A DNA stretch of 64,000 nucleotides, from the NCBI RefSeq assembly GCF_003171515.1, contig NC_089393.1, positions 1,178,001 to 1,242,000 of the forward strand, read 5' to 3'. The translations under genes and the position numbers were made by a program. Under the pieces are notes generated by a model that saw only the letters and a list, made by a program, of their open reading frames with translations, ran no database searches and had not been told where the DNA came from. The DNA is from Pyrenophora tritici-repentis (Eukaryota > Ascomycota > Dothideomycetes > Pleosporales > Pleosporaceae). This document shows, one piece after another, positions 24,599 to 25,875 of this stretch; within the stretch, counting starts at the first letter, position 1, and the number at the start of each line of letters is the position of its first letter.

Positions 24599-25875
24599 TT
24601 ACCGCTCCTCCGCCATCTCCCTCCCAGTCTCCGTCTTCATCATACGCGGATAATGTGCGAAGCGCTCCTCAACAGGTCTAATCCAGTTTCCAATCAACTC
24701 GTCACTACGAACATTATTGCCGTCGCCGTATGGAGGGAAACGGCTCACACCAACCGCGCCAAGTCCCTCCAGCCGAACCGCGTCTTGAAAGATGCAAAAT
24801 GCGTGATTTTCATCCGCGAAAGCCTTGACGCCTTCTTCATCTGCGATTTCCATGGTGTATGGGACCTTTGCGATTAGCTGAGCGGCCTGGTAGCGGATGG
24901 CTGCTGGACAGCCGATGTGACGGTTAAGATGACTTCTATTCAAGCGAGTAGAAGGTTAGCTTTTTGCTCCGCAACAGTTATGAGCCCGGGATCGCTTGAT
25001 CCTGCCCCAGTAACACCTTGGTGGTTTACTGGTAGGGTGGGTGACCGCATGCGAGCTGTGCACACCACAATTAGCCAAGAACACTGCGCATGACAGCTGC
25101 AAAGCTGGGAGCCAGCTGTTAGGGCCACGGACGTAGAATACCAGATGCTCGGAGCAGAATATACAGGGCATGTTGCACTGCGGTCAACATGTATGAAAAC
25201 CTTGAAAAGCTACCAGCTCTGCGCTATTGCTACGATCTGGGGGGGTGTGTGACGGTTAAGATGACTTCTATTCAAGCGAGTAGAAGGTTAGCCTTTTGCT
25301 CCGCAACAGCCGAGCGGTTCGAGGAAGGCGTCGATGATGTCGATTTGCGACCATGTTTCTCCTGCGTCTTGGTATATGTCATTGCTAACGTCGTGTATCA
25401 TGCATGCGACCCAGATAGATAAAGGGTCGATGCTACGTGCCCATTCGTTGCATTCACTCTCTTTGTGGAGAATTGTAGCGGCGTTGGAGACGATGCGGCA
25501 GACGTGCTGGTAGTCGTGCGATGGATTCATCGTCTCTCCAAACCTGCGTATAGAGATGTTGATGGCCGCGAACCATTGACGGTGCTCTGGCTCGATGGCT
25601 AACTTGTCCATGTCAAATAGTGAATAGTCATTCTTGACAGCTTCGGTCTCGAGCGTGACAGGTCTTGATGTTGGAAGTGCGGGAAGAGCCTTGTCCAATA
25701 GGCTCATATTCACTTTCGCTGGAGTCGATGTGTTCGTGGTAGTGGGAGAGGTGTTTGCATTTCGAACTGGTGTAGCGGGTGCATCCATTGGAGGGGGTGG
25801 AGGAGATCCGATCGCGGCCTGGCTCTTCGACAGACCACGAAAGCGGTGCGAGATCGCATTGACAAGGTCCTTCAT
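24599..25875 (-). pseudogene. HD-domain phosphohydrolase-like gene split by a TRIM insertion
   Basis: From ATG 25875 the minus strand encodes a disordered N-terminus and then an HD-superfamily core with the first His in SHDYQHVCRIV and the His-Asp in ACMIHDVSNDIY. At LEPLGC the frame runs into the 393-bp element at 24916-25308 and stops six codons on. Beyond the element the same protein continues with the segment around IFQDAVRLEGLGAVGVSR, which carries the last metal-binding Asp, and ends at 24599. Omitting the element and one copy of its 5-bp duplication leaves a 292-residue frame with no other break. The interrupted product (about 195 residues) would lack the fourth metal ligand, so it should be inactive unless the insertion is spliced out. 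Substrate unknown; HD proteins often hydrolyse nucleotides or phosphate esters. Confidence 0.8.
24916..25308 (+). mobile_element. TRIM: 393-bp terminal-repeat retrotransposon in miniature
   Basis: Two 61-bp direct repeats, 24916-24976 and 25248-25308, differ at one base, start with TG and end with CA. The 5-bp target duplication GCCGA lies on both sides (24911-24915 and 25309-25313). Directly after the first repeat is GTTATGAGCCC (24977-24987), the reverse complement of the anticodon stem-loop GGGCUCAUAAC of initiator tRNA-Met, as in copia-type half-tRNA priming. Directly before the second repeat is GGGGGGGTG (25239-25247), a polypurine tract. The 271-base interior encodes nothing. Together these are the full set of LTR-element signals in a non-autonomous unit, oriented plus, probably mobilised by a Ty1/copia relative. 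One LTR difference implies a young insertion. Confidence 0.92.

Follow-up and report, generated by a model that had tools for sequence, protein, structure and literature searches.

The window analysed here is a 64-kb stretch (C4:1178001-1242000) of the 40.9-Mb genome of Pyrenophora tritici-repentis. It contains a real, young TRIM of this fungus, a non-coding LTR retroelement, in which the 5S-type box C in the interior is the unusual part, and one that the earlier note on this DNA overlooked. We consider it likely that this TRIM is helped by copia and is transcribed by Pol III from a promoter split over the repeat and the interior. With a little more reserve, we favour assigning it to an ascomycete class of copia-dependent TRIMs with a split 5S-type (type 1) Pol III promoter, in which TATA and start would lie in the 5' repeat, a TFIIIA box C past the primer site and a T-run terminator in the 3' repeat. 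Only complete elements of this class would be transcribable, with an R region of approximately 10 nt.

The element is 393 bp (24916-25308; Table 1) and is bounded by two 61-bp TG...CA direct repeats that differ from one another at one base, repeat position 46. The motif GTTATGAGCCC directly follows the left repeat. No ORF that reaches 100 aa is contained within 24916-25308, and two host-gene ORFs overlap the element's edges. Its short TG...CA repeats, its length below 1 kb, the primer-binding site and polypurine tract that adjoin the repeats, the lack of coding sequence, the target site duplications (TSDs) and the existence of several insertions identify it as a TRIM. The repeats, their single difference, the GCCGA duplication, the half-tRNA primer site and the G-rich tract had been described in the earlier note, correctly to the base.

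Table 1. Features of the element and the interrupted host gene (positions are those of the window)
Feature	Position	Strand	Basis
Host gene, 3' part, P0001 from residue 190	24599..24910	-	
TSD GCCGA, left copy	24911..24915	+	sequence
5' terminal repeat, 61 bp	24916..24976	+	repeat comparison
Weak TATA-like stretch TTAAGAT, -30 to -24 relative to the predicted Pol III start	24924..24930	+	weak for F1
Predicted Pol III start (+1), repeat position 39	24954	+	prediction, box C set to +83 as in 5S genes
T-run TTTTT in 5' repeat, +8 to +12	24961..24965	+	sequence
Primer-binding site GTTATGAGCCCGG, complementary over 13 nt to the tRNA-Met(CAT) 5' half (tRNA read as initiator)	24977..24989	+	
Resemblance to 5S +66 to +82, 10/17 to 5S consensus	25019..25035	+	
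5S-type box C, GGTGGGTGACC-N4-GCGA	25036..25054	+	
Polypurine tract TGGGGGGGTG, directly before right repeat	25238..25247	+	
3' terminal repeat, 61 bp	25248..25308	+	
T-run TTTT in 3' repeat, predicted Pol III terminator	25294..25297	+	prediction
TSD GCCGA, right copy	25309..25313	+	
Host gene, 5' part, P0001 residues 1-189	25309..25875	-	

When a 403-bp query was used to search the genome, at least 13 matching pieces were returned (genome match counts are lower bounds throughout), some of which belong to a related family, here named F2. As these pieces include a second complete 393-bp copy, the element is not a chance arrangement. Its own family, F1, has at least two complete copies, that in the window and C3:3594231-3594623, which differ at one of 393 bases and are flanked by different TSDs, GCCGA and ACGTT, respectively. 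Full-length solo repeats with a TSD were found at C4:48313 (GAACT), C2:4942121 (TATAG) and C1:1033061 (AAATA), an older one (82%) at C7:58215 (TATTT), and partial solo repeats at C8:2100665 and C5:1449598. A search with the repeat, proposed in the earlier note as a check, thus found it to be not unique but present in several copies and solo repeats with 5-bp TSDs. That note's description of a complete, young TRIM agrees both with the near identity of the other complete copy and with the presence of 5-bp TSDs at all six full-length F1 insertions (two complete elements, four solo repeats). Among the fetched loci, the solo repeat at C1:1033061 has a paralogous empty site (84% over 107 bp across the junction, L070 and L086), and none was found for C4:48313, C2:4942121 or C7:58215. 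The solo repeat at C4:48313-48373, with its TSD GAACT, lies at the margin of a copia RT match. A half-tRNA primer motif at C2:4942263-4942273, approximately 80 bp from the solo repeat at C2:4942121 and on the same strand, is unexplained.

The copy in the window interrupts a host gene. The protein P0001, a 292 aa P. tritici-repentis database entry with 8 member sequences and 3 contigs, joins both host-gene pieces with nothing between them and retains the coding for one GCCGA, and one of the host protein pieces is 100% identical to a protein named for P. tritici-repentis. In the window, the host frame (ORF 25288-25875, 195 aa, minus strand) stops six residues inside the element. As P0001 reads through the site, we conclude, from protein-level evidence, that an uninterrupted allele exists and that the element breaks the gene here. 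The source names of P0001, TUN199_09139 and Alg130, suggest to us an origin from other isolates. An allele that lacks the element yet shows no single GCCGA, which the earlier note had named as evidence against insertion, did not turn up in this check, made at the protein level, where P0001 is continuous across the site. Pfam returned only sub-threshold PDEase/HD matches for one host-gene piece and no match for the other. The coding region of this hypothetical host protein is cut in the window and whole in the database entry, and a copy that interrupts a gene found whole elsewhere in the database points to recent activity. That the repeats arose by local or segmental duplication, with no mobile element involved, has in our estimate almost no probability. 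Just two complete F1 copies were found in the assembly, as such duplication might leave, but the 5-bp TSDs differ among the six full-length insertions, a retroelement primer site and polypurine tract are present, and the uninterrupted allele in the protein database already refutes this reading.

The half-tRNA primer site proposed in the earlier note gained in length from the genome's own tRNA genes. ARAGORN identified tRNA-Met(CAT) at three of the five genome places holding GGGCTCATAACCC, and from their sequence these genes are read as initiator tRNAs. The reverse complement of the tRNA-Met(CAT) 5' half starts GTTATGAGCCCGGCGCG and so matches the element over 13 nt, the match starting exactly after CATAAC. 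For Drosophila copia and yeast Ty5, the match likewise starts right after the anticodon loop, where the tRNA is cut. Both are autonomous elements, cited in the available part of PMC10886601 for a half-tRNA primer of this anticodon-loop type.

GTTATGAGCCC occurs 223 times in the genome, tRNA genes and TRIMs included, compared with 11 occurrences of the reversed control. Its position relative to copia RT matches was examined for 100 listed places, 91 of them on C1-C3, and for 150 listed RT matches scored out of 407 candidates, 59 of them being on C1-C3. In 34 of these 59 cases the motif precedes the RT match on the same strand by 2-5 kb (distances taken to the match's low coordinate), and in the other 25 no listed motif falls in that range; random placement gave a mean of 0.56 and a maximum of 4, and flipping the strand gave 0. 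Among 14 copia leaders chosen for holding the motif, two (L105 and L106) have it in the register of the TRIM, with ACA directly followed by GTTATGAGCCCGG. At the 3' end, the L105 element has CTGGGGGGGAG followed by TGTAACGGTT, where the TRIM has CTGGGGGGGTG followed by TGTGACGGTT. A pattern for this junction of polypurine tract and repeat matched 12 places in the genome, the two F1 copies and ten copia-like sequences with CTGGGGGGGAG followed by TGT(A/G)ACGGTT, whose likeness to F1 is short, approximately 20 nt. For four of the ten copia-like junctions a listed copia RT match precedes the junction by 848-851 bp, and two of these four RTs have stop codons; for the other six, the 150 RT matches scored out of 407 candidates include none so placed.

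The search for a copia element with the TRIM's termini, also suggested in the earlier note, therefore led to the family at C1:998655, which has the primer site, polypurine tract and repeat tip in common with F1. As it shares both the primer register and the junction, this family is the best helper candidate. Two further groups (L027/L039 and L043) were rejected as partners, their ends, GAGGGGGAG followed by TGTTGA or TGTTAA, being a mismatch to F1. From the common ends we infer that the element was probably moved by a copia retrotransposon supplying proteins in trans. The copia helper to which the earlier note pointed has good support, short of proof, in the primer site and ends common to a resident copia. 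Separately, TGGGGGGTGTGTCACGGTT has 15 matches, including C2:1235169, C2:1293787, C2:5028938, C3:87388 and C3:1509543, and in all five of these C2 and C3 cases GTTATGAGCCC lies 1.28-1.53 kb upstream. These sequences may belong to another and larger non-autonomous LTR family that has the same ends.

The 5S genes of this genome have GGTGGGTGACC-N4-GCGA as their box C, and in F1 this motif lies 59 nt beyond the first base of the primer site. The pattern GGTGGGTGACCN{3,6}GCGA has 38 matches in 41 Mb and none in the reversed control. Thirty-two are at Rfam 5S matches (28 above the Rfam cut-off and 4 below) and six are in TRIMs, and the box C spacer is 4 in all 38. A looser pattern, GCCCGG-N{38,66}-GGTGACC-N4-GCGA, recovered the same six TRIM sites and nothing more. 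Two of the six are in F1, three in F2 (on C10, C9 and C7) and one in a third family, F3. The complete F2 element on C10 is 395 bp, with 70-bp repeats that have 1 difference and the TSD ATTTA, and the complete F3 element on C6 is 598 bp, with 65-bp repeats that have 4 differences, the TSD ATTAT and a primer site with one change. The C9 and C7 pieces of F2 appear to be duplicates of a single piece, and their upstream sequence is unlike the F2 repeat. Of 11 F2 solo repeats fetched, ten were parsed (L118 was left out by the parser) and eight of these have perfect TSDs; L119 and L120 have common flanks and may represent one event.

Box C lies 58-60 nt from the primer-site start in all three TRIM families and is found only in the interior, the terminal repeats being without it. 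In an Rfam scan, neither 5S nor tRNA models matched the element, and the two matches to other families were below threshold. As the Rfam 5S model has no match in the element, box C, rather than a complete 5S, carries the link to 5S. The Helenus type of repeat, which is tRNA-like, was considered and rejected: Rfam gave no tRNA match for the element, and none of the 11 F1 and F2 loci scanned with ARAGORN contains a tRNA gene; the same scan gave no sign of F1 lying beside tRNA genes. Two F2-type repeats (C10:2111836-2111906 and C1:9875286-9875356) end 36 bp upstream of two 5S genes, and as their upstream flanks look duplicated they perhaps represent one insertion. Targeting of Pol III genes by retroelements is known in other systems, according to the portion of PMC5911963 available.

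In 28 of 29 5S rows the gene begins 82 bases ahead of box C, with ACATACG (once GCATACG); the exception (L086) is a fragment, and L085 was missed by the 5S pattern. With box C set to +83, +1 falls at F1 repeat position 39. Among 27 distinct 5S stretches, A/T runs are strongest at -29 to -24, with single peaks elsewhere, for example at -40 and -6. The TATA runs of the complete F2 (-34 to -24) and F3 (-35 to -23) copies are placed roughly as in 5S genes, and the TATA-like stretch of F1 is 6/8 A/T, which is equalled elsewhere in the F1 repeat. All three families have the T-run, at roughly the place expected from a 5S gene. It is only TTTT in F1 repeats other than the 5' repeat in the window, and TTTTT in 10/10 parsed F2 solo repeats, for which the parser itself required at least four T. 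TTTT is absent from the F1 and F2 interiors and occurs once in that of F3, between the primer site and box C.

A 5S matrix covering +66..+105, box C included, scored 8.9 in F1, 0.0 and -3.6 in F2 and 2.6 in F3, with the best positions 41-43 nt past the primer-site start in all three families, and -20.1 or less in 14/14 copia leaders. The F1 site has the top score of the 64-kb window, where the runner-up scored -3.1. For +48..+82, the score was reached by 3 and 4 of 2000 single-base shuffles in F1 (two rows with the same letters), 13 and 36 in F2 and 15 in F3, which suggests a modest further similarity to 5S upstream of box C. For +66..+82 alone the numbers, again of 2000, were 6 and 11 in F1, 78 and 349 in F2 and 30 in F3, and this part alone is not convincing in F2. 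The matrix comparison of the TRIMs gave no clear 5S resemblance at +1..+47 or at +102..+110, after GCGA. As the 3' arm of 5S is missing, a role as promoter is favoured over mimicry of 5S RNA.

The partial nature of the similarity, without +1..+47 and without the 3' arm, would also suit a dead relic, a 5S fragment or 5S-derived SINE that entered an ancestral TRIM and hitchhiked without function, and an origin by SINE3 insertion has been proposed for Cassandra and Ajax in the accessible part of PMC10886601. A relic is expected to decay evenly, yet F1 and F2 are only 72% identical around box C while its 15 bases and the 58-60-nt distance are unchanged across families, and we regard this explanation as improbable. 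We give somewhat more credence, though still little, to an ordinary TRIM transcribed by Pol II from the TATA of its repeat, with box C as a conserved RNA packaging or folding signal that is 5S-like by convergence. The TATA runs of F2 and F3 fit Pol II as well, and the stretch from primer site to box C has a predicted hairpin in which, for 4 of 16 pairs, both bases are substituted in one or more of four sequences (the 5' end of the F3 row is misaligned). Copia elements are presumably transcribed by Pol II, and the resident copia has the TRIM's primer site. However, the 11-base core of box C is in none of the 14 copia leaders, so box C was not inherited from those leaders, its 15 fixed bases with a spacer of 4 are found in 41 Mb only at 5S matches and in these TRIMs, and in F2 and F3 its distance from the TATA is approximately that of 5S genes.

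Under the Pol III reading that we prefer, TFIIIA would bind the interior box C, and TFIIIC and TFIIIB would then assemble at the TATA position of the 5' repeat. Pol III would start near position 39 of that repeat and produce an RNA of approximately 344 nt that runs through the primer site and interior and ends at the T-run of the 3' repeat; such a start and stop would leave an R region of only about 10-12 nt. Copia proteins would package this RNA in trans, the initiator tRNA, cleaved after its anticodon loop, would supply its 5' half as primer, and the same proteins would copy it before insertion with 5-bp duplications. As box C is outside the repeat, complete elements would have the promoter and 3' repeats and solo repeats would not. 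The weakest step is that Pol III must pass the T-run at +8 to +12, although termination inside the first dozen bases is perhaps unlikely.

The earlier note held that TRIMs are rarely recorded in filamentous fungi, a statement that the literature amends. From the text available of each source, they are on record in the filamentous ascomycetes Cochliobolus heterostrophus (PMC4112212) and Venturia (PMC4646964), and rusts and some Agaricomycetes have TRIMs with this tRNA-iMet anticodon-half site (PMC10886601). Those of C. heterostrophus, a related filamentous ascomycete, are likewise tied to copia, being related to Copia-1_CH (PMC4112212); the text available of that source gives no analysis of their promoter or primer. 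Kojima 2024 named as TRIMp3 the TRIMs with Pol III promoters in their repeats, Cassandra, Ajax and Helenus (PMC10886601). As described in the accessible sections of that paper, fungal Helenus resembles the present elements in TRIM size, 5-bp TSDs, tRNA-iMet anticodon-half site, copia partner and a proposed Pol III promoter, but has a tRNA-like sequence within its repeats and among fungi has been reported from Pucciniales and a few Agaricomycetes; the elements described here have a 5S-type box C, in the interior, and an ascomycete host. Cassandra of plants and Ajax of nemerteans are, in the parts seen of PMC10886601 and PMC7215508, TRIMs with 5S-type promoter motifs, Ajax also with 5-bp TSDs. 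Their 5S part is in the repeats, whereas box C here is downstream of the half-tRNA primer site and outside the repeats. Compared with TRIMp3 spacing, the Pol III motifs here are box C and, in F2 and F3, a TATA at approximately 5S spacing, together with weak upstream similarity. As the part resembling a small-RNA gene is outside the repeat, the present elements lack the feature that defines TRIMp3, but they plausibly work in much the same manner. Among the matches listed in a search of literature titles and abstract openings, subscription papers and preprints aside, none reported an ascomycete TRIM with a 5S-type box, or an LTR element with such a box in its interior.

A working split promoter would solve the two-promoter problem that identical ends pose for an LTR retroelement, since with an essential box in the interior the 3' repeat could not start transcription into host DNA. 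Pol III-driven TRIMs would then gain the ascomycetes and a second architecture, and the finding would suggest that copia reverse transcription can draw on Pol III RNA.
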